The position numbers were made by a program, and so were the translations under genes. The notes below the pieces were generated by a model. It was not told the DNA's origin and ran no database searches. It saw only the letters and a program-made list of their open reading frames with translations. This document shows, piece after piece, positions 28,554 to 41,558 of a DNA stretch of 64,000 bases. Source of the DNA: Syntrophomonadaceae bacterium (GTDB lineage Bacteria > Bacillota > DSM-12270 > Thermacetogeniales > Thermacetogeniaceae); the NCBI GenBank assembly GCA_012840385.1, contig DULK01000093.1:124001-188000 (forward strand), given 5' to 3'. How positions within the stretch are numbered: position 1 is the first letter of the stretch; each line of letters starts with the position of its first letter.

Positions 28554-28961
28554 GTGGTGGCCGTATGCGACCCTTTCTTTGCCGACTACTTGAAAGAAGG
28601 GGAGATCATCGAGAGTACCGACCTCACCGGCGAAATAAAAGGCATTTTTATGAGAGCTGGGAAGAAAGTATTACCTCTTATGAACTACCCTTACCGGATG
28701 CTCTGCTACCGGAAGGGGGAAGGCAAGCTTTTATTCAGCGTGAATCTGGAGGAATCTTCTTTTGGTACGTGTTACTTTGGGGTTGATAAAGGGGGCAGCC
28801 ACTATACTTTGAGGCCAGGAATCAAAGTAGAGAATATAGATACCTACTGCCTTCCCAGGTACCAAAGAGTTTATTTGTGGGAATTAGAAAACATGGATAT
28901 TAACAAGGTAGTTTTTTACCACGGCAGTGTGGAGCAAAATTGTCGAATTACCGAGAATTAA
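28554..28961 (+). CDS. Hypothetical protein, 135 residues
   Basis: The frame starts with GTG 28554 (a second GTG follows at 28557) behind TTGGAGGG. The protein looks beta-rich (KGIFMRAGKKVLPLMNYPYR, LLFSVNLEESSFGTCYFGVD, RVYLWELENMD), with no membrane helix, signal peptide or metal motif. I do not recognise a family. The next gene begins 11 bases after its stop and both are read in the same direction, so they form a two-gene unit near the island edge. Function unknown. Confidence 0.6.
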   Translation: MVAVCDPFFADYLKEGEIIESTDLTGEIKGIFMRAGKKVLPLMNYPYRMLCYRKGEGKLLFSVNLEESSFGTCYFGVDKGGSHYTLRPGIKVENIDTYCLPRYQRVYLWELENMDINKVVFYHGSVEQNCRITEN

Positions 28962-28972
28962 AAGGGGCGTTC

Positions 28973-29593
28973 ATGGTGAAAAGTGAGTTGGTAACAGTTC
29001 TTAAGAGTGTAGACCTATTTCACAAAACCTGCATCTTGATGCTTAGCGACTTTATTTCTTACGTTAAGGATCGCTTATTGGGTAAAAACTTATTCATGTG
29101 GGAGGATGTATCAGGTTATGGAGTGTGGCATAAAGTGTCCCAACATGTGGGGAATTTTGTGTTTGAACACAATAATTGCCTGAAGTTTGCTTTTCTATTA
29201 ATCAAAGCTAACGAAGACGCAATAAGGAATGGACCAGGGTATAAAGATGTATGTGCAGATCTGCAGGTCGATCTTCGTTTTCCTCTTCTGTTTGTTACGG
29301 GAGTTTACCAACCGCTAAGTTCGGGAAATGCGGATCAGTTCCGAAAAGACCTAAACCTGCGCCGCGCATGGCCCCAGCACTTGTTAAAACTACAAGTTCC
29401 TGACCATGTGCTACAAAAGGTGAAATGCTCTTCTCCATATTGCTTCAACCAAGAGCTTTCGTTTGAGACGGACCCCTCGGTGGGAAACTGGTGGTGCAAT
29501 AGTGCGCAGTTCAAAATATGGCGCGTCACCGATATAAAAGATCAGAAAACGTTAGTTAAAATTGCAGATGAACTACTATGCAAGCAAGGTTAA
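28973..29593 (+). CDS. Hypothetical protein, 206 residues
   Basis: ATG 28973 has AAGGGGCG upstream; an in-frame TTG at 28940 overlaps the previous gene and is less likely. The product is a mixed alpha/beta soluble protein. Distinct parts are YGVWHKVSQHVGNFVFEHNN, the LRFPLLFVTGVYQPL strand pair, and a C-terminal KIWRVTDIKDQ segment; two cysteine clusters are loose. I know no family with these features. It is paired with the gene before it and convergent with the minus-strand gene ending at 29597, only three bases away. Confidence 0.6.
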   Translation: MVKSELVTVLKSVDLFHKTCILMLSDFISYVKDRLLGKNLFMWEDVSGYGVWHKVSQHVGNFVFEHNNCLKFAFLLIKANEDAIRNGPGYKDVCADLQVDLRFPLLFVTGVYQPLSSGNADQFRKDLNLRRAWPQHLLKLQVPDHVLQKVKCSSPYCFNQELSFETDPSVGNWWCNSAQFKIWRVTDIKDQKTLVKIADELLCKQG

Positions 29594-29596
29594 ACT

Positions 29597-30541
29597 TTAA
29601 AATTTACCCTCGATTTCTGCCGCGACTTCACCGGCCCGATTCGCCGCTGTAAAAAAGCCGTTACAGAAATCCATCCCAAAATTAGCAAGATGCTCCTTCC
29701 AGAGCTTTCCCTGTTCACGGCTGAGGGATGGTTCTCCATATATCGAGATTGCAGTCAAGGACACATCAACCTTACTTCCCGCTAAAAGGAACGGCAGGCA
29801 CAGTACCACTCGGCGGGGATAGCGCCAATCTGGCTGGAAATTGAAACGGTAGCGCCCGCTCAAAGTAAGATAGGTGGGTAGTTCGTTAAATTGGCCCTGA
29901 AGAAATAAGCGTTTCGTACTTCCCTCCAAACGGGGCAGTTTTTCTGCCCTGGCAAACCGATCGAAAAGAGCTAATCCAACCCCTAGAGCCCGACGCCGGG
30001 AGAGTCTTTGAAAAGGAGGAACGGGTTCCTGGTTGGTGGCATAGAGAGTGGCATAAAAAGCTAGCAACAACTTTTCTAGGAAGCAAGATGGCAAGGGCTT
30101 GAGGAATTCCGATAGTTGGTTTTCACTTTCTATCTGCACCGCCATAACCCAGGCCAGCACTTTTACATCCAGTTGCTCGTTTGGTGGGGGATACGGAATG
30201 TGAGTGTAACTTTCATGTTTGATGCACAAAGAAGACAGCTTCAACGGGTCCTCTGCCACTTCCAGAGCCCACTGACCGATGGGGTCGGTATGGCTTGCCC
30301 GGCGCGGGTCCGCGGATAGCCAGGCGGTGAAATCTTCCCGATCGAAAGGCACTTCAATCCAGTCCAGCAAATTCTCTCCTTTTTTCCTATCCCAACACTC
30401 AAGCCTTTCCCTTCTGGTCAAAAGGAAATCTTTATAGTCATCGGGGTTGCCGCCCCAGAGAAAGAGAAAATCTTTTTCGGTGAAGACCACCTCTACGAGG
30501 TACTGGCCGTCATAAATAAGGCCGGCTTTTTCTTTTTTCAC
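29597..30541 (-). CDS. Hypothetical protein in the decayed WYL-regulator cluster
   Basis: 314 residues from a GTG read from 30541, with GGAGGG seven bases upstream; a longer frame exists but overlaps a remnant gene. The N-terminal 100 residues contain LFLWGGNPDDYKDFL and LLDWIEVPFDREDFTAWL, a module repeated in the broken neighbour at 30604-30960. The remainder is alpha/beta with RYRFNFQPDWRYPRRVVLCL and a Gly-Phe-rich end. I do not recognise it. Its position behind a WYL regulator resembles clusters of mobile or defence genes, but that is weak evidence. Confidence 0.6.
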   Translation of the reverse strand: MKKEKAGLIYDGQYLVEVVFTEKDFLFLWGGNPDDYKDFLLTRRERLECWDRKKGENLLDWIEVPFDREDFTAWLSADPRRASHTDPIGQWALEVAEDPLKLSSLCIKHESYTHIPYPPPNEQLDVKVLAWVMAVQIESENQLSEFLKPLPSCFLEKLLLAFYATLYATNQEPVPPFQRLSRRRALGVGLALFDRFARAEKLPRLEGSTKRLFLQGQFNELPTYLTLSGRYRFNFQPDWRYPRRVVLCLPFLLAGSKVDVSLTAISIYGEPSLSREQGKLWKEHLANFGMDFCNGFFTAANRAGEVAAEIEGKF

Positions 30542-30603
30542 GTGTTGACCCTCCATTCCTGATGTTTCACCCTGCGCAGCCTGCTCCGGTGGTATGGTTT
30601 TGG

Positions 30604-30960
30604 TTACTTCAACGCAGAACGAAGGCCATGCTTGATTTCTTCGATATACCCGTCTGCCTGGGCATCGGAGAAGAAGTGGTGACTGCCCACTCCAGGTGAG
30701 CGTCAGGCTGACCTGCCCCTGTAGGGTTTTCCCGCGCCCAGGCGATATAATCCACCAGATCAAAGGGTACGCGCACTAACCAGTGTAACGGATGTTTGTC
30801 CCGCGCCTCCTGGTAAGCTCGAGTGGTGGCGGCCAAAAAGTCAGGGTAAGCGTGGTCATCTCCGCCCCAGAGCTTCCGGTATTCCTCCGGCCCGTAAGTC
30901 CACCCATATAAGGCGGTTGCCGTCGCAGGCGAAGCGGAATTCCGGCTACACCTCCATACC
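30604..30960 (-). pseudogene. Frameshifted paralogue of the N-terminal module of the neighbouring gene
   Basis: Reading the minus strand, one frame gives YGPEEYRKLWGGDDHAYPDF, then LHWLVRVPFDLVDYIAWARE, clearly parallel to LFLWGGNPDDYKDFL and LLDWIEVPFDREDFTAWL in the next gene. Near 30690 the frame must shift for the reading to continue as SDAQADGYIEEIKHGLRSAL and K before TAA at 30604. Either the gene is broken or the frameshift is a sequencing error. No start codon with a ribosome site was found at the 5' end, near the end of the WYL remnant. Confidence 0.55.
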
Positions 30961-30962
30961 CC

Positions 30963-31329
30963 CTAAAAAGCGCCGGTCTCGCGCCGGTAAATTGAGAGCG
31001 TTTCTTTCAGGGTTGCGACTATGGCCTCCCGCAGCCAGCCCGGCTCCAGCACCTCCACGGCCGCGCCCCAACCCATAAGCCAGGGGATCATCTCTGCGGC
31101 GCCGCTCACCTCGAAGCGCACCTCGAGGCCCCCGTCCGGCAACTCCTCCGTGACCTGGCTGGCGTGGTATCTGCCGGATGGTCTTCTCGCTCGGCTCCCG
31201 GTCCTTCACTTCCCGGTATGCCTCCTTGAGTTCCTCCAAGGTGGCCCCGCCCGCGGGCGTCCTCTCGATCACCGCGAGCAGGATCTTAATAACCGCTTCC
31301 GGGTGATCCCGGGTGCGCGGGTAAGGCAT
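30963..31329 (-). pseudogene. Broken WYL-domain transcriptional regulator
   Basis: The first 55 codons (from ATG at 31329, MPYPRTRDHPEAVIKILLAV ... ATLEELKEAYREVKDREPSEKT with the middle omitted) form the winged-helix DNA-binding start of a WYL regulator. Then the sequence jumps, out of frame, to YHASQVTEELPDGGLEVRFE and GWGAAVEVLEPGWLREAIVA, the C-terminal WCX part, ending at TAG 30963-30965. Roughly 200 codons of the WYL domain are absent. WYL proteins often regulate phage-defence and stress genes and bind ligands; this copy cannot be functional as written. Confidence 0.7.
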
Positions 31330-31692
31330 AATTTTCTCCCCTCCCGTATCTTTCTAACTGATACCCAGGAATTTGTATTCCTGCCTCATTTTCTGCAGCC
31401 GCGAACATTTCCCCAAAGACCTTCCGTTTATATGCCCGGTAAAGGTCGTCGACGTGTCGGCTCTGCCGGGCCAGGACGTATTTTCCCGACGTTGAAGCTT
31501 AACTTGTCCACGACCAACCGAAGGTCCAGCTACAGAAGCCGTAGGCATTCTGCTTATGGGATTTGATTAGTTCCAGGACCTTTTTTTCCTGCTGCTCCGT
31601 CAGGCAGTCTTTGCCTTCGCAAGAAAGCAGGTCCACATAGGCGGTTTCCGGCTGTATCCTTAGTCCTCGATAAGGCCGGTGACGTTTCCACT
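31286..31692 (-). pseudogene. Unidentified gene fragments upstream of the WYL remnant
   Basis: Two open pieces are readable on the minus strand. The first (about 31692 to TAA 31499) reads TAYVDLLSCEGKDCLTEQQE and ends AYGFCSWTFGWSWTS. The second, in another frame (about 31487 to TAA 31286), reads KYVLARQSRHVDDLYRAYKR and continues to LERYGRGENYA. They could be one gene split by a frameshift at about 31495. Neither half matches a family that I know. Confidence 0.35.
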
Positions 31693-31694
31693 TC

Positions 31695-31875
31695 TTACTC
31701 CCGGAACGCCCGTTTGAACTCGGCGATCAGTGCTTCTTGTTCGGGCTCACTCAGGCGGAACCTTTTTCGATTGCTGCCGCAGTCTTCCTGCTGGTCCCCC
31801 CCGTAACCCCCCGCATCCCATGCCGAAAAGTACAGCCGGCAGGCACATGGCCCAGAAAAGCGCTCTCTTTTTCAT
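31695..31875 (-). pseudogene. Small lipoprotein gene interrupted at a G7 tract
   Basis: From ATG 31875 the minus strand reads MKKRALFWAMCLPAVLFGMG and then CGG, a lipoprotein signal peptide with its lipobox Cys. At a run of seven G (about 31796-31802 as C on the plus strand) the reading frame leaves the expected course and stops at TGA 31747. If one G is removed, the frame continues to EEQEALIAEFKRAFRE-like sequence (SEPEQEALIAEFKRAFRE) and TAA 31695. Either phase variation by slippage, real decay or a sequencing error. Confidence 0.5.
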
Positions 31876-32271
31876 CTCAACCACACTTTTCCAGCTTAGC
31901 GTTCCGGGTTGATAATACCCGATCAATCGGACACATTACTGTCCGTAGCGCCGCGAAGCAATGGAGTTTCTTATCAATCGGGGGATGAATTATAGGCAGG
32001 CTGTTTGATACCTGCCAGGTTTTTCTTGTCGGCTTTTGGCATGATATCATGGGGTTTTGCAACGGATTCCTAGATTCAGTGGAAAACCAATAATCCCAAG
32101 CGTTGCTTACGAAAGAGAACTAATCAGATCACTTGCCGATTATCTCCCCATGCTCGAAGAGGAAAAACCTATTTTTTGGCGAATAGTGTAAAAGAAACCA
32201 GGGCAGTTGTTTATACCATCCGAAGTTAGTACCTCCCAGGTTTGTTCAGCCCCTTAACCGTCTAGGGGGTT

Positions 32272-32811
32272 TTGTATGTCTGGCATCAGTTTCAACAGCA
32301 AGGGAATTTTTTGTGCCTGGTCACGGCGGCACAGCGGGTGGAAGAGAAACGAAAGCTGCTGCGCAGGCTTGAGCATATCCGGAAGATGGTAACAGTCGAA
32401 AGGGAACGATCCGCCAACCTGAAGAAGCGATTGGCGTCCGAAGAAAGGGACCTTAAGCGGCTGGACGGGCTGTCGCTGGTAAACCTGTTTCACACCATAC
32501 TCGGCGACAAGGAGGATGCCAGGCAAAAAGAGCGGCAAGAATACCTAGCCGCCAGGCTCAGTTACGATGAATCCTGTGATACCCTAAAGGCCCTGGAAGC
32601 CGAGCTGAAGAACCTGGAGCTGGAAGTTGAAGCTCTCGGGGATCCGGAGCAGGAATATAAAGCCGCTTTGAAAGAGAAGGAGAGAATTTTGCTCCAGTCT
32701 GGCGGGCCTGCCGCCCGGCGACTTTTTGAACTGGACGATTTCCGCCATTTCCGGTTGTCAAAGAGCTTTTTGCTTGCTCAAGTAAACCTTATTACTAACA
32801 TGGGTTGCTAA
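32272..32811 (+). pseudogene. Coiled-coil protein fragment, truncated at both ends
   Basis: The frame opens without a good start (TTG 32272, no ribosome site) with WHQFQQQGNF, then changes into a well-kept coiled coil (RVEEKRKLLRRLEHIRKMVT ... LKALEAELKNLELEVEALGD) and breaks off after GGPAARRLFELDD into unrelated residues. A hairpin with CCCCT and AGGGGG (about 32252-32274) lies just before the frame. The core looks like a longer cytoplasmic coiled-coil protein of this bacterial group, of which only the middle survives. Confidence 0.5.
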
Positions 32812-33155
32812 GCAAAATAGGTGCACCAGCGGTAAAGCCCCCTATTAAGCAACTAAAAAATTCGGACTGGTTGGTTCGCAGGGCAGCAGCTGAGGCACCA
32901 GGAAGGATTGGTGACAGGCGTGCTGTCGAGCCGCTCAAAAAAGTAGCGTCAAAAGACGAAGACAAGAGGGTGCGTTGGACTGGCGCTACTGCGTTAGCTA
33001 AAGTGGGTGCACCAGCCGCTTATGAAAACCATTGTTGGAACTGCAAGAGTAGAATTAACAGCTACATAAACCAAGAGTGCTGTGTCTGCCACTAGTACAT
33101 ATGTACAGAATGCGGTGCTTGCGGGTGTGACTACCCTTGGTCTATACGTTTGTGA
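32805..33155 (+). pseudogene. HEAT-repeat plus zinc-ribbon protein, truncated, with in-frame TAG
   Basis: Two to three PBS-lyase-type HEAT repeats ([40 protein letters not shown]) lead into a zinc-ribbon-like segment ([20 protein letters not shown]), where TAG (33093-33095) interrupts. The same frame continues as YICTECGACGCDYPW to TGA 33155. In related zinc ribbons the position taken by TAG is a Trp (pattern CxxCgWYIC), so TGG has become TAG, or the end is lost by choice. There is no credible start: the 5' part of the HEAT array is missing. Confidence 0.6.
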
Positions 33156-33310
33156 CTTCTGTCTCTGCGATTTATGGAAGGGTGACACACACCTAAGCCA
33201 GTGAAACCTGGAATTCGGCAACCTCATCGGTAAGCAGTATCCGAGGGACTGGTTGATTGGTTGGCTTGTATATTTTTTGCAGATTTGTGGTCTGGGAGGT
33301 TGTGGTTTGT

Positions 33311-36300
33311 ATGCTCATTTATGTGTACATCACTGAGCCATGTAAAAGAGATTTGCAGCATTATAACACGACTGAGGAGGTCTATGCATTTGCGGAAAAG
33401 GTCAAGAAAGACCAGAATACGCAGCAATTTGAAAGGTTTCCCCCGCCGTATCTCAAGAAGCGTTTTGGCAAACAAGGGAGGCTCATCGTTGAGGAGTGCA
33501 TATTTGAGGAAGACGTGGTCTTATGTTTTGTGCGGTACCTTCTCCGGGGAGACAAAGAGTACGAGAAGTTTGTAAGCGACCCACAAGGATTTCACAAGAA
33601 AAATGCAGTGTCAAGAGATGAAATTCTGCAATTCATTAGAGAGCAGCGCACAGAAGGTGCTGTCTCGCCGCTGCCAAAGCTTACTGAGATTGAAAGGGAG
33701 TACCTCCATGCAGTCATAGGACACTACTATGCGGCAGAAGATGGGGTTATTTTGGAAAGTTACGATTGGTACGAACGTACCTCGGAACCATGGTTTAAGT
33801 ATGACTCTTACCACTGGGAGGCGGTAAGCGATATCGTAACCAATCCCGTACTCGATTCCAACGTTTATGTACACCCGCGGGACTCAAAGATAAGGGTTAT
33901 GTATCGCTATATCCCGGAGCACAATAAACTTTTCCTTATTGCCCCTTTGAACCCCAGCAGACCTGAGGAAAACCTTGTCGAATTGGAGAAACGCTACGAA
34001 GAGTTCCTAAGAGGCGACAGGCTATCCGAAGAGGATCTGTTGCGTTGCAGTCGCCGCGCTTACCCATCGCTAATCACACTCGATAAGGACGTCTGGGCCA
34101 ACATTCAAAAAAGTGAGGTAGCAAACCTTGCGCTCTCGCCAGAGGAAGAAAGAATTTTAATGTCTATCCTCGACAGGAAAAGCAACCGCGAAAGATACCC
34201 CTTATTTATCAATGGACGTGCAGGAAGCGGAAAATCAACGATCCTTCAATACCTCTTTGCGGAACACCTGGCCCACCATTTAGCTACGGAACCTGATAGG
34301 CGCTTGGCAAAACCCCCGTTGTATTTGACTTATAGCAACGAATTATTGGACCAGGCCAAGAAGGCGGTAAAAAGCATACTTCTTTGCAGCGCAAAGATGC
34401 ATCTGGATCCGAGACGCAACCTTCCTGACTTAAACGACGAAACGGTTCAGAAGGAAATAGACTCTGCATTCCGCAATTTCCGCGGTTTTCTGCTCGAGCT
34501 GTTACCCGCTGAGAAAAGATTGCGGTTCGCGAAGAGTTTCCACGTTCAGTTCAACCGGTTCAAGAAGCTCTGGGAGCCGAGGCGGGCAAAACACCCCGAC
34601 AAGAACGTGAGGCAGATAAGTTCGGAACTGGCGTGGCACGCAATTCGCACGTACATCAAAGGTATGCGTACTTTGGACGGCGGGGAGGTAGACCCCGATT
34701 ACTACAGAGAAATCCCCCGGGAGCGTAAAGCGCTGACAACCACAACTTTCGCGCTGATTTACGAACACGTATGGGATAAATGGTACAGGCAGCTATGCTT
34801 AGAGGAAGGCTATTGGGACGACCAGGACCTTGTCCTGGAAGTGCTAAATTCGCCGGTAGACTTGTCTCAGTACCCAGCCATCTTCTGTGATGAAGCACAG
34901 GATTTCACTATCCTTGAGATAGAGCTGTTGGAGAGGCTCTCCCTCTTCTCAAAACGCCAAATACCCCTTTATTTGGCAAAAGATATTCCGTTCGCGTTTG
35001 CCGGGGACCCATTTCAGACTGTCAATCCTACGGGTTTCAACTGGGATGCAATTAAAGCAAGCTTCCACGACAATATAGCGAGACAGCTTGACCCAACGGG
35101 TGAAGCAAAACTCCAGTTCAATTTCCAGGAGCTGACACTTAACTACAGGTCATCGGAGCAGATAGTAAAGCTGTGCAACTTAATCCACCTCCTGCGAGGT
35201 GTGGTGCTCGGGATAAAAGAGCTGCGGCCACAAATGAGATGGTCTACGCAGGAGCACGTGAGCCCTTTCTGGTTCCGCTGGGACGATGCTGAATGCAGAA
35301 ATACCCTCAGGGAACAGGAAGAACTCATTATCATTATCCCGTGCCAGGAAGGGGGCGAGCTGGAGTACATTGAGCAGGATCCATTCTTAAACGACCTTGC
35401 TTTGAGAGACGGGGAGTTAACAAAGAATATTCTTTCCCCTGCACGGGCAAAAGGCCTTGAATACAACCGGGTAGTGCTCTACGGCTTCGGGGATCACGCC
35501 ATTAAAGAGCTACCAGAGCTAGTAGAACGGATGGAAAACTTAGAAAACGTTGCTTACGAAGCCCCCGACCCGGATGAGCGCTTACCGTGGGAATATTTCC
35601 TCAACCAGCTTTACGTAGCGGCCAGCAGAGCCAGGAAGCGACTCTTTATTGTTGATTCAAATGATGGGATCAGGAAATTCTGGTGCTTTACCGAGCCTAA
35701 ATTCCGGAATGAGTTACTGGCATTTTATGCATCTTATGAGGCGGGACAAAGGTGGACACCGAAAGATGTTGGCGGGATTGTGCAGGGGGACAACGAGAGT
35801 TGGCTTACGGACCGAGACAACCCGCTGGACCTTGCTGAGAAGTTTCGCGATCAGGGTCTAGCCAAGCAGGATCCCTATCTTTTGAATTTGGCCTCCCAGA
35901 ACTACATCAGGGCAAACAGGCCAGAAAGTGCCAGTTTATGCAATGCTTTGGCATTGGAATTTGAGGAGAAATTCCAAGAGGCAGGGAAACTCTACGTCCA
36001 ACTTGGAAGGCCCAAGGAAGCTTGCAGGTGCTTTTGGGCATGCCAAGCATTACAAGAGCTTTTGTCGCTTAAGCGGCGGTTTCCAGAAATCGCGCATGAT
36101 ATACGGTTCTTGGCCGCAAGTTTCCTCGAAGAGAAGAGTAAGACATGGGAGCAGGCTGTCGAACTATTGAGGAACATTGTCAGCAAAGGGCGGAAAGATG
36201 CGGTCAGCGGCGAATACTGGGATTGGTTCATCGGAAAATTCCTTGATGAAGTAGCCCACATGATACAAAGTCTGAAGTCTGCGAGTAAGATACAAAAATC

Positions 36301-37690
36301 GGAGATCGAGGTAGCAGTAGACCTTATCCTAGACGCAATACAATTGCTTGGGTTGCCATGTGTACGTTACGAGCGTCTAGCAGAGCTTCTTTATCACGCA
36401 GGCCGACCACGCGAAGCAATCGAGCTATGGGAGCAGATGGCACAAGACGGCAGGGAAGACCCTGAATGGTTGATTCGCGCTCGTGCTGAAACAGAGTTCT
36501 ATCCGGAAAATCTGAGGTACCTAGCTCAGTTAGGAGATCATAGAACAATTCTTGATGCCTGGCATAACGCTGGGGAGAACAGAGGGAAAGAAGGCGAGTT
36601 GATCAGTCTCGTGTTCGAGAGCGCCCTGGAGTTGGAGGATTTGGACGTCCTAAAACAGCTTGTATTTCAGGTGAACGAGACTGCCTATGTTCTCCAAGCC
36701 CTCAAACTGGCTCTGGAAAAAAACAGGAAGGACTTTTTAGAAATCTTCCCTGCAGCCTTTTCCAAGTTGTTAATAAGACAGAGAGGTTGGAGCCGACTCG
36801 TGAAGTTTGCAGAGGAACATGTAACAGGAGATAGTGAAAGTGATAGGCTCATAAGCGAGTTTCCGAAGAAATGGCATAGAAATATTCTTCTGGCGAGGGT
36901 AATTGGCATCCTTGCCAGGTCCGAGGAGTTAACCCACGAAAGAGCAGGGGAACAGAGAATCATTTCCGACTTCCTTTACAGGAATCTTGTTGCGAAAAGG
37001 GGAGCAAGACCAGAAGAGCATCAGAAGATAGAGGAGCTTCACATATATGTGAGTGCGCGGGAAGGCGGAGCAGCTCTAGAACGCGCAGGGCGCCTAACCT
37101 ACGTACTGGACTACTACGAGCAGTGGTTCCCAGAAGCACAAAATAGGGTTCTTCATATGAGCGACGAAGAACTGCGGTATCTTCGTGCTCGTTGGCTTGT
37201 GTGTAAACGCCGTCTTGCAGATGTTACAAGGGGCACGAAAGGCTCAAGACATCGCGAAGAAATCGAAGATTACGAACGCCGTTGGGGTCTTAAAGTTACC
37301 GATGAACCAACGTTTCCTTCTCTTTCGCCCTTTCCTGTAGAGCCGGTGCCTCTAGTACAACCGGCCGAAGATAAACCTGTTACTGGGCTAGGAACGCAGG
37401 TCAATATTGAAGTCAACTTTGAAATTAAGTTGAGCGACCGAATCCTGAAGGGCGAGTTGTACCGCCGAAAGCACCGTCTCACCCTTCGCGACATAGGAAA
37501 AGAGGACAAAGTAGACTGCGGCCCAGACAGAGTAAGCTCTGGCGATTTAGACGTTGTTAAGCTGCACGAAGCTCAATGGCTCATACGTGAGTGGAACATA
37601 CTATGCGAGCTTGCAAAAACGAACGAAACAGTAACTATCAAGCTTAGGGACGCCGAAAGCAAGGAACTCCTATTTGGCATAGAAGTCTAA
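33311..37690 (+). CDS. Giant SF1 (UvrD-like) helicase with N-terminal accessory domain and helical C-terminal half
   Basis: About 1459 residues; ATG 33311 follows GGGAGGT (33294-33300). Residues 1-90 (LIYVYITEP; FPPPYLKKRFGKQGRLIVEE) have the size and strand order of RelE/ParE-like toxins, a weak resemblance. The helicase motifs are complete: Walker A GRAGSGKST (about 302-310), DEAQD (about 527), FAGDPFQTVNPTGFNW, LNYRSSEQ (about 612), SPARAKGLEYNRVVLYG (about 708), LYVAASRARKRL (about 767). The GDPFQTxNPTGF signature is shared with TRANK1-like helicases. Residues about 830-1330 are an alpha-solenoid of TPR-like hairpins; the last 100 residues are beta-rich. It should unwind or translocate on nucleic acid using ATP. 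It starts a block of plus-strand genes ending with two membrane proteins. Confidence 0.88.
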   Translation: MLIYVYITEPCKRDLQHYNTTEEVYAFAEKVKKDQNTQQFERFPPPYLKKRFGKQGRLIVEECIFEEDVVLCFVRYLLRGDKEYEKFVSDPQGFHKKNAVSRDEILQFIREQRTEGAVSPLPKLTEIEREYLHAVIGHYYAAEDGVILESYDWYERTSEPWFKYDSYHWEAVSDIVTNPVLDSNVYVHPRDSKIRVMYRYIPEHNKLFLIAPLNPSRPEENLVELEKRYEEFLRGDRLSEEDLLRCSRRAYPSLITLDKDVWANIQKSEVANLALSPEEERILMSILDRKSNRERYPLFINGRAGSGKSTILQYLFAEHLAHHLATEPDRRLAKPPLYLTYSNELLDQAKKAVKSILLCSAKMHLDPRRNLPDLNDETVQKEIDSAFRNFRGFLLELLPAEKRLRFAKSFHVQFNRFKKLWEPRRAKHPDKNVRQISSELAWHAIRTYIKGMRTLDGGEVDPDYYREIPRERKALTTTTFALIYEHVWDKWYRQLCLEEGYWDDQDLVLEVLNSPVDLSQYPAIFCDEAQDFTILEIELLERLSLFSKRQIPLYLAKDIPFAFAGDPFQTVNPTGFNWDAIKASFHDNIARQLDPTGEAKLQFNFQELTLNYRSSEQIVKLCNLIHLLRGVVLGIKELRPQMRWSTQEHVSPFWFRWDDAECRNTLREQEELIIIIPCQEGGELEYIEQDPFLNDLALRDGELTKNILSPARAKGLEYNRVVLYGFGDHAIKELPELVERMENLENVAYEAPDPDERLPWEYFLNQLYVAASRARKRLFIVDSNDGIRKFWCFTEPKFRNELLAFYASYEAGQRWTPKDVGGIVQGDNESWLTDRDNPLDLAEKFRDQGLAKQDPYLLNLASQNYIRANRPESASLCNALALEFEEKFQEAGKLYVQLGRPKEACRCFWACQALQELLSLKRRFPEIAHDIRFLAASFLEEKSKTWEQAVELLRNIVSKGRKDAVSGEYWDWFIGKFLDEVAHMIQSLKSASKIQKSEIEVAVDLILDAIQLLGLPCVRYERLAELLYHAGRPREAIELWEQMAQDGREDPEWLIRARAETEFYPENLRYLAQLGDHRTILDAWHNAGENRGKEGELISLVFESALELEDLDVLKQLVFQVNETAYVLQALKLALEKNRKDFLEIFPAAFSKLLIRQRGWSRLVKFAEEHVTGDSESDRLISEFPKKWHRNILLARVIGILARSEELTHERAGEQRIISDFLYRNLVAKRGARPEEHQKIEELHIYVSAREGGAALERAGRLTYVLDYYEQWFPEAQNRVLHMSDEELRYLRARWLVCKRRLADVTRGTKGSRHREEIEDYERRWGLKVTDEPTFPSLSPFPVEPVPLVQPAEDKPVTGLGTQVNIEVNFEIKLSDRILKGELYRRKHRLTLRDIGKEDKVDCGPDRVSSGDLDVVKLHEAQWLIREWNILCELAKTNETVTIKLRDAESKELLFGIEV

Positions 37691-37891
37691 TGGGGCGCCG
37701 TGATCCTCGACGGGAAGGGGAGCTGGGGTACGGTCAAGCGGCCTAAACGGGATGGTTCCGGCACGATGGTTACTTATGTTGTGGTTTCAGGAAACGCGAC
37801 TTCTAACGGCTAAACCATGCGGCGCCGTAGCTGCGCCTGATGGCGAAATAGGAAATGCTAATAACTTGAGTTTCCAGGAGGGATCGATTGG

Positions 37892-38071
37892 ATGTCCATT
37901 TACGTCTATATTGCGCCTTCCTGTGAAGCGGACATGGAACGTCATACGCGGGTGAGGCGGTTCGCGCGTTTTTACAATTCCAACGGAGTTAAAAGGCGCA
38001 ACCAGGAGATTTGCCAGCAGGAACGAACGATCTGGGTCTTCCTCCAACTAAGTCGTCTGCTATCCGCCTGA
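37892..38071 (+). pseudogene. Truncated second copy of the helicase N-terminal domain
   Basis: ATG 37892 is preceded by CCAGGAGGG. The 59-residue product begins MSIYVYIAPSCEADMERH, which parallels MLIYVYITEPCKRDLQHY at the start of the large helicase. The two DNA sequences differ at many third positions, so this is a diverged copy and not a recent duplication. The frame loses similarity after about 45 residues and stops at TGA 38069-38071. Between the helicase stop and this gene a 38-codon open stretch (WGAVILDGKGSWGTVKRPKR onwards) has no start codon signal and may be another remnant. Confidence 0.55.
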
Positions 38072-38169
38072 TCAGGGCAGTCCTTATGGAGATAAATGAA
38101 ATATGGATTTAAGTAAGTGTTACTTTAAGCCAGACAAGCCGGTCTACCAACTTGAGGAGGATACTGATA

Positions 38170-38871
38170 ATGGGCAATGACTGCATAAACCGCATTGTAG
38201 GCAAAAAATTTCTACCTGGCCGCCTAGTCAAGGAAAGCACCGAAGCCGCTGGTCGGCTTATTGATAAGCTTATCATGCAGTACGACTCTGGTATTTGGGG
38301 CAATCTTAATGTCGAGTTTCTCAGGATTGCCAAAGAGCAAGTAGTAGTCTGTTTACAAAACATGGGAAATGTTGCAAAGATTACTGTACTAGCTCCATTA
38401 GGGATCTGGGGTATCACTTCTTGCTACGGTTTCCCAGACCTGGACATCAGGGAGCTAGGAATAGGATCTCACCGATACTTTTTGTTTCACAGTGCGCTTG
38501 GACTTGTGGTGCTTCGTTACTTGTATAACAAGTGGCGCAATGGCGTATCGCAAGGAAGCGCAGGCTGGGTGCAAATAGGTCTTCAAAAAGCGGGAGGAGT
38601 TCTCTTGGGAGCATCTGCCTTTGGTGTTGGCGTACATTTAATGGTAGATGTTTTTCAGCCTAAAGCAGTCATCTTTCCATTTTTCGGCTCTCTTCTCGAT
38701 GGCACAATGATCGATGACAATATTTGGCTTCTGGGCAATTCATTGTGGGCCTTTAAGATCGGAGCCGACCTTTTCTCCTTGTGCTTGGCCGATGAGTTTA
38801 AAATGGCGAAGGAATGGACGCAAAAGTATTTCGGAGGCGTGAAAGATGCCGCTCTTTATTCTAGGTATTAG
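38170..38871 (+). CDS. Membrane protein resembling DUF457-type metal-dependent hydrolases
   Basis: 233 residues; ATG 38170 follows GAGGAGG nine bases upstream. Several hydrophobic helices are visible (ITVLAPLGIWGITSCYG, YFLFHSALGLVVLRYLY, GGVLLGASAFGVGVHLMVDV, NIWLLGNSLWAFKIGADLF). The pairs SHRYFLFHS and GVHLMVDVFQP resemble the His/Asp motifs of DUF457 (YdjM-like) inner-membrane hydrolases, some of which are SOS controlled in other bacteria. The similarity is partial. The gene overlaps the next by 26 bases and lies 480 bases behind the large helicase, so the three may work together. Confidence 0.7.
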   Translation: MGNDCINRIVGKKFLPGRLVKESTEAAGRLIDKLIMQYDSGIWGNLNVEFLRIAKEQVVVCLQNMGNVAKITVLAPLGIWGITSCYGFPDLDIRELGIGSHRYFLFHSALGLVVLRYLYNKWRNGVSQGSAGWVQIGLQKAGGVLLGASAFGVGVHLMVDVFQPKAVIFPFFGSLLDGTMIDDNIWLLGNSLWAFKIGADLFSLCLADEFKMAKEWTQKYFGGVKDAALYSRY

Positions 38872-39790
38872 CCAGATGTCAAGGGAAGAAAAGGCATCCC
38901 TGTTGGCGCAACTTAACAGCATGACCAGTATGAACATCCTTAACGAAGGCGTACAGAAGGCGCTTCATTCGGCAAAAAAATTCACTCTGGTCAAGATTGC
39001 CAGGATGTTCGAGAACCTCGGAGCTGGGGATTTTGCCAGGTCTCTTGAGAAGATAGATCGAGTCACGGAATGGAACACGAATGTGCTGGCGGCGAAAATA
39101 AGGGGAGAAATGGAGAAACTTAAGCTACTCAACGATACGAAACTGTGGCAAGATATTCGACTTAAAATGATCGACATCGGTGGTGTAGACGCGAGTGCAA
39201 GTGAAGAGCAGATTGCGGAGGCCGTAATAAATCGTGTGGCTGCGCTCTATAAACTTGACACTAGGACGTATCCGAATATCGTTGCAAAAGAAAACGCTGT
39301 CTTTGAAGCTTGTATAAATGACCTGATAGAACAGCTGCAAAAAAAGCTAAATAGGATGACCATGGAAGAACAGGACAAGTTCCGGAAGCTCCTGGAGGAT
39401 GAAATTAGAAGCCTTTCTAAAGCAAACAGAGAGGCTATCAAGGAGGCTACCGGCTTACAGGAACTTTCATCACAAGCTCTACTCAACTTCTTCAAAACCA
39501 CTTCTGGAGTAGCTTTTGCCCAGATGCTTGTTGGGGCGACTGGCTTCGGAGCCTTCATGTTTTTGACTACCACTTTAAAAGCAATCTCTTTACTATTAGG
39601 CGTTAGCCTTCCTTTCGGAGTTTATACGGTAGCTACATCGGTACTTGCTTTCCTGCTGTCAGGACCTTTTTTACTGTTAGTAATCGCGTTGTCTGGAGGG
39701 GCTATTCTCTATAAGACGAATGAAGATTTAAAACACCAATTGGCGAAGATCCTAATCGTTACAGGTAGAGCAAAGTTGATGGGTTGCTAA
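38846..39790 (+). CDS. YaaW-like protein with C-terminal membrane hairpin
   Basis: 314 residues from ATG 38846, inside the end of the previous gene, with GGAGGCG upstream. The first 210 residues are helical and soluble (including MTMEEQDKFRKLLEDEIRSL and ATGLQELSSQALLNFFKT). They are followed by two long Gly- and Leu-rich hydrophobic segments (VAFAQMLVGATGFGAFMFL; VYTVATSVLAFLLSGPFLLL) and a short basic tail. This order resembles YaaW/UPF0174 proteins, whose role is unknown, and also the general form of pore-forming effectors. Overlap with the preceding membrane gene implies linked expression. Confidence 0.75.
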   Translation: MPLFILGISQMSREEKASLLAQLNSMTSMNILNEGVQKALHSAKKFTLVKIARMFENLGAGDFARSLEKIDRVTEWNTNVLAAKIRGEMEKLKLLNDTKLWQDIRLKMIDIGGVDASASEEQIAEAVINRVAALYKLDTRTYPNIVAKENAVFEACINDLIEQLQKKLNRMTMEEQDKFRKLLEDEIRSLSKANREAIKEATGLQELSSQALLNFFKTTSGVAFAQMLVGATGFGAFMFLTTTLKAISLLLGVSLPFGVYTVATSVLAFLLSGPFLLLVIALSGGAILYKTNEDLKHQLAKILIVTGRAKLMGC

Positions 39791-41265: not shown

Positions 41266-41558
41266 CTAGATTTGACGCCAACTGATCCGGTCGCTGACCA
41301 GGGCGCAAAGGTGCCGGTCCCTGAGCCCATACTGGTGCTTGAGTGCTGTTATGCGCAAGTAGGTTTCCGCCGGCACGGAGGGCCGCCCCAAACACTGATG
41401 GTATTTGTCCCGAAACGGTATGAAGAAACGCTCATCATCCAGCCAGGCGTCCAGTTTGGCCAGATCTTCCGGAAGCTCAAGCACATCGGACGGCAATAGC
41501 AAATCCACCAGTGATATTTGTCTGCTCTCTTCCTGCCGGAGGCGCTTTTATTTTTCAC
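41266..41558 (-). pseudogene. N-terminal fragment of an IS transposase
   Basis: The minus strand encodes LPSDVLELPEDLAKLDAWLD, then FIPFRDKYHQCLGRPSVPAE and TYLRITALKHQYGLRDRHL, the N-terminal DUF772-type domain of IS1182/IS5-like transposases. The likely ATG at 41558 (behind a GGAGGTGAAA site) is in a different frame, so a frameshift separates start and domain. The DDE catalytic part is missing and the fragment ends at about 41266 against the nuclease-like gene. Confidence 0.7.

Follow-up and report, generated by a model that had tools for sequence, protein, structure and literature searches.

The window, by which we mean the whole stretch of 64,000 nucleotides analysed here, carries on its plus strand an intact UvrD-like SF1 helicase gene with a TPR region (ATG at 33311, stop at 37690), whose Pfam matches to UvrD-type helicase and TPR families lie above cutoff and whose N-terminal domain (NTD) takes up about residues 1-100 (33311-33640). 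Behind it, on the same strand, lies an open frame of 59 aa (37892-38071) that begins with MSIYVYIAPSCEADMERH. The Shine-Dalgarno-like motif AGGAGG (37876-37881) ends 10 nt ahead of the ATG of this ORF, motif and start codon together spanning 37876-37894, and a single terminator-like hairpin (37947-37966; 0.7 expected by chance) falls within the frame. The DNA between the helicase stop and the start of the frame (37691-37891, coordinate 37691 being simply the first base past the stop) is an unassigned gap: DNA searches gave just two short, chance-like matches of 15 and 23 bp, and stop-free peptides from it match no Pfam family at E<=10. The intergenic DNA has no second copy in its own genome, where, besides itself, it finds matches of 15-20 bp alone. 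The 59-aa ORF, taken unmodified, likewise has no Pfam match at E<=10. Further downstream, a 233-aa protein without a Pfam match (38170-38871) precedes a 314-aa protein (38846-39790), residues 119-266 of which match LeoBC in PADLOC (E 5.3e-7). A piece of a DUF772 transposase is found on the minus strand at 41266-41508 (E 3.2e-7), and a short HEAT-repeat frame, perhaps a fragment, lies just before the helicase (32805-33095; HEAT_2, E 9.6e-14); both pieces fit a decaying neighbourhood.

The first codons of the 59-aa frame resemble the start of the helicase. On a position matrix of 18 positions, built from 21 helicase NTD starts (alignment A2), ORF residues 3-20 score 22.6 bits; the best other place in the window, among 127,554 six-frame positions after removal of the two NTD starts, scores 10.7 bits, and none of 7,673,640 positions in 60 first-order-Markov random windows reaches the score of the ORF (maximum, 17.0). 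The same holds when the window helicase is left out of the matrix (ORF, 21.3; random maximum, 17.4, with no position as high) and when cyanobacterial rows alone are used (17.3 and 16.1, again with no position as high); an earlier version of the matrix (17 rows, 15 base shuffles) gave 23.5 for the ORF vs at most 18.7. Aligned in pairs, residues 1-24 of the ORF score 48 with the start of the window helicase, 52 with that of the homologue L003, 51 with that of L070, a PSCE-type homologue, and 37 with that of a Moraxella protein considered below, and in each case none of 500 shuffles equals the score; with the RTSEF-type cyanobacterial helicase L005, the score of 19 is at chance level (139 of 500 shuffles as good). 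Could the likeness be accidental, the ORF being a remnant of an IS256-family element with a chance start codon? A single-pair BLASTP of the ORF and the helicase is weak (E=0.005), the full-NTD HMM aligns the ORF at positions 1-28 with an E value of 0.52 (it is the top non-helicase among 12,981 frames), and the DNA alignment with the 5' end of the helicase scores 18, inside the shuffle range (300 shuffles, 13.6 +/- 2.0, maximum 29), all of which would suit such an accident. We nevertheless regard it as improbable, given that no random position and no other place in the window matches the matrix score, that the likeness sits exactly at a start codon directly behind the helicase, and that it extends to PSCE-type homologues (L070) unseen when the original prediction was made. 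When the own genome was searched with the NTD (E<=10 and E<=1), the helicase was the sole entry returned, the ORF being absent.

As judged from these comparisons, the conserved first strand and helix of the helicase NTD, a RelE-like domain by prediction, are present at the start of the ORF, and we annotate 37892-37951 (plus strand) as what probably remains of the beginning of a further helicase-type gene, corresponding to the first 18-20 NTD codons. The likeness stops at about residue 18-20, the whole domain being of about 100 residues, and in the predicted fold the ORF retains the first strand and the first helix alone. The second helix is missing, as are the later strands, and with them K48, R56, R78-G79 and Y83 (A2 numbering), which form the NTD core, defined here as the invariant and nearly invariant A2 columns; besides the helicase, no frame in the window aligns beyond HMM position 28 above noise. 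Eight of the first 18 residues, the start Met included, are shared with the helicase, and only 3 of these 8 use the same codon. Because the codons of the shared residues mostly differ from those of the helicase, the head appears to be old, and because, in addition, it is no closer to the neighbour than to L003 or L070, a recent tandem duplication of the neighbouring gene is ruled out. Nor is the head a part of the transposase described next: compared with the transposase upstream of the join it scores 13, with 420 of 500 shuffles as good. Most likely, and on the strength of sequence comparison, the head descends from a second gene of the helicase type that had diverged anciently.

The rest of the frame has another source. 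By DNA, protein and PF00872 matches, plus-strand positions 37964-38126 make up the tail end of a transposase gene of the IS256/Mutator family. In a DNA search of 20 genomes of the same family, the own genome included, five places in genome G005 match 37980-38093 at 71% identity (E 6.8e-7), and gentler scoring extends the match to 37980-38126 (68% identity over 148 columns, E 2.9e-14). The five places are copies of one IS of 1396 bp, identical throughout, with flanking repeats of 8-9 bp (read from the printed flanks), and every copy encodes an IS256/Mutator-type transposase of 436 aa; the matched DNA corresponds to IS coordinates 1107-1252 of 1396. In one frame, residues 26-50 of the ORF match transposase residues 355-379, and transposase residues 380-400 are matched in another frame; the tail is therefore frameshifted near 38043. 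When the reading is joined across the frameshift, PF00872 (Transposase_mut) is found at E 3.7e-6 (26.5 bits vs a cutoff of 21), with residues 25-72 aligned to positions 330-377 of the 379 of the profile. Two plasmid records also match within the tail (E 4e-3 and 1e-3), in genes annotated as 'transposase mutator type' and 'IS256 family transposase'. Head and tail join between about 37946 and 37964. A full-length transposase is absent, the recognisable part being confined to the IS coordinates given above; IS ends, with their terminal inverted repeats, and target-site repeats were not recognised next to the remnant, and no further piece of IS256 in the window is convincing (the next best is 26 bp, E 0.10). 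PF00872 has no match at E<=1e-3 in the own genome, the remnant itself making a weak showing because it is short and shifted. The original prediction, which took the frame for an old, truncated copy of the helicase NTD with a ribosome site of its own, was right about the site and the age; as to the copy, it holds for the first 18 residues or so, the remainder being a transposase tail that had gone unnoticed.

It had also been proposed that the frame might be a kept stand-alone domain, for instance an immunity or decoy version, in which case separate copies might recur next to helicases elsewhere. All 25 strong NTD matches found in 25 genomes (E<=2.4e-20) are the N-termini of helicases, lying in frames at least 461 aa long that match the helicase alignment as well. 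At E<=1, 24 of the 25 genomes have an NTD match, the exception being G424, where the helicase match begins further in; six other NTD matches in the 25 genomes (E 0.26-0.66) were treated as noise. Likewise, 27 sequences, which total 453,192 bases and reach some 6-8 kb into the flanks if the contig is long enough, hold 25 helicase NTDs and no other NTD above noise; 25 of the 27 have one NTD each, and tandem helicase pairs were not seen at any of the loci examined. Across the phylum of the window, five of 398 genomes match the NTD at E<=0.01. The two strong matches, in the window genome and in G308, are helicases, and the other three, which are weaker (E 1.1e-5 to 0.009), all lie in frames with stops: one in genome G119 (E 1.1e-5) with two stops, and two more (E 0.004-0.009) with five stops each. 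The NTD-like stretch in G119 (contig C40; around 1501-1701 of L113) is perhaps a broken RelE-type gene. A search of plasmids, with the NTD of the window as sole query, gave one annotated stand-alone NTD (E 0.04), in Moraxella osloensis: WP_201666615.1, a 'hypothetical protein' encoded at 3199-3621 of L116 (NZ_CP068110.1), which by translation and pairwise match (E 1e-9 vs the window NTD) is an NTD of the helicase family. Its frame stops at the edge of an IS3-family element. By eye, the ends of this element have an inverted match of 10 bp, and a tblastn search of the 9,474 bases fetched detected no other helicase parts. A family of stand-alone NTDs, each a gene by itself and present again in relatives, was thus not encountered in the sets searched, the one apparent exception to this absence being an NTD that ends at an IS3 element. 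The start codon and ribosome site of the 59-aa frame persist and its first 18 residues are recognisable, as a kept domain would require; yet only the first strand and helix of that domain remain, its core is gone and what follows is a frameshifted transposase. With no stand-alone NTD in the 25 genomes or in the flanks searched, the proposal of a kept domain is already largely refuted, and we give it hardly any credence.

We consider it very probable that the 59-aa frame is a chimeric pseudogene, in which the diverged start of a helicase-type gene is joined to the decayed tail of an IS256/Mutator transposase gene. A further gene of the helicase family, by then widely diverged in sequence from its neighbour, would once have begun at 37892. 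An IS256/Mutator-family element may then have inserted in or beside this gene, and deletions would have taken the rest of the gene, the left part of the IS with most of the transposase, and the right end of the IS. The residue of these events would be about 18 helicase-type codons joined to about 50 codons of the transposase tail, which would have acquired its frameshift after the joining. The insertion is put forward conditionally because the ends of the IS and its target-site repeats are unrecognised beside the remnant, and the tandem ancestor, which had been suggested in the original prediction and fits the evidence, is treated in the same way because tandem helicase pairs were unseen at the loci examined; the order of the events, and deletion as their route, are similarly plausible reconstructions. 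The chimeric piece probably has no function of its own. Fifty-nine codons are open and a ribosome site is present, as they would be in a new micro-gene, made of an NTD start and a transposase tail, that is expressed and useful; the frame is shifted, however, relative to that of the transposase, and outside the own genome the DNA search of 20 same-family genomes matched just the tail of the G005 element and, at E 0.09, a 23-bp stretch in G011. A simple scan, moreover, found no promoter-like site (0.6 expected by chance), and we hold a useful micro-gene to be very unlikely. More specifically, and with next to no likelihood in our estimation, the frame might be translated and its RelE-type strand and helix might bind or poison the RelE-like domain of the neighbour, which, if true, would make it a trapped mini-regulator arising from transposon decay. 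As a chimeric pseudogene, the remnant carries little weight as a finding, gene decay tied to an IS being ordinary. It serves rather as a warning that short frames behind large defence-type helicases may mimic kept domains while being junctions of two broken genes.

The intact helicase, taken whole, has homologues in Pseudothauera and in three cyanobacterial records. At E<=1e-40, the whole helicase is present in 20 of 386 genomes in the phylum of genome G405 (the centre genome counted), 19 of which also have the NTD, in two of 398 genomes in the phylum of the window (the window genome counted) and in one of 369 genomes in the class of Pseudothauera, namely the Pseudothauera genome itself. None of 40 relatives carries it at E<=0.001, no relatives of the whole helicase were found in phages or viral contigs, and among plasmids two cyanobacterial records match it at 24-25% identity, over the helicase part alone. 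Structure prediction gives the NTD the fold of RelE/ParE toxins. An AlphaFold2 model (mean pLDDT 94.9, pTM 0.87) gave RelE, YoeB and YafQ toxins as top Foldseek matches, with a best E value of 2.2e-3 and none below 0.001, and a second look with VIA returned 50 entries (Z up to 10.1), whose titles are those of toxin or toxin-antitoxin structures (RelE, ParE, HigB, YoeB, YafQ and others) and Cami1. At the sequence level, Pfam ParE_toxin matches two of the 21 NTD members (best E 0.00028), the NTD of the window not among them, and a PDB sequence search with A2 gave two matches, neither of which is named as a relative of RelE. Within the NTD, the invariant K48, R56, G79 and Y83 presumably recall the active-site pattern of RelE, to which their assignment is putative. 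A useful by-product of this work is a predicted RelE-fold domain on a UvrD-like helicase, found in cyanobacteria and in a few other bacteria among those searched.

This architecture has already been published. According to a preprint, ArmD of ARMADA type II is a GajB-like UvrD helicase with an N-terminal RelE-like domain (PMC12458937), and the best PADLOC match of the window helicase is GajB (E 5.1e-8). By domain layout, the intact helicase of the window shares the architecture of ArmD, and the remnant retains the opening residues of a domain of this kind, without the domain core and without the helicase. Partners of the ARMADA type, of which ArmA, ArmB and ArmC would lie in front of the helicase in a type II system, were not seen among the ORFs of 160 aa or more that precede the helicase (28904-33257), the longest of which has 392 residues. 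Compared with an IS256/Mutator transposase gene, the remnant is alike in sequence, DNA and order over some 50 codons near the end of the enzyme; in contrast to it, the remnant is frameshifted, and neither the upstream part nor either end of the IS is present in recognisable form. The Moraxella protein WP_201666615.1 resembles the remnant in being an NTD without a helicase of its own, situated between ISs, and differs from it in being of about full length and cut at the end of an IS3 element. The Moraxella plasmid thus offers a parallel case, that of an NTD cut by an IS.
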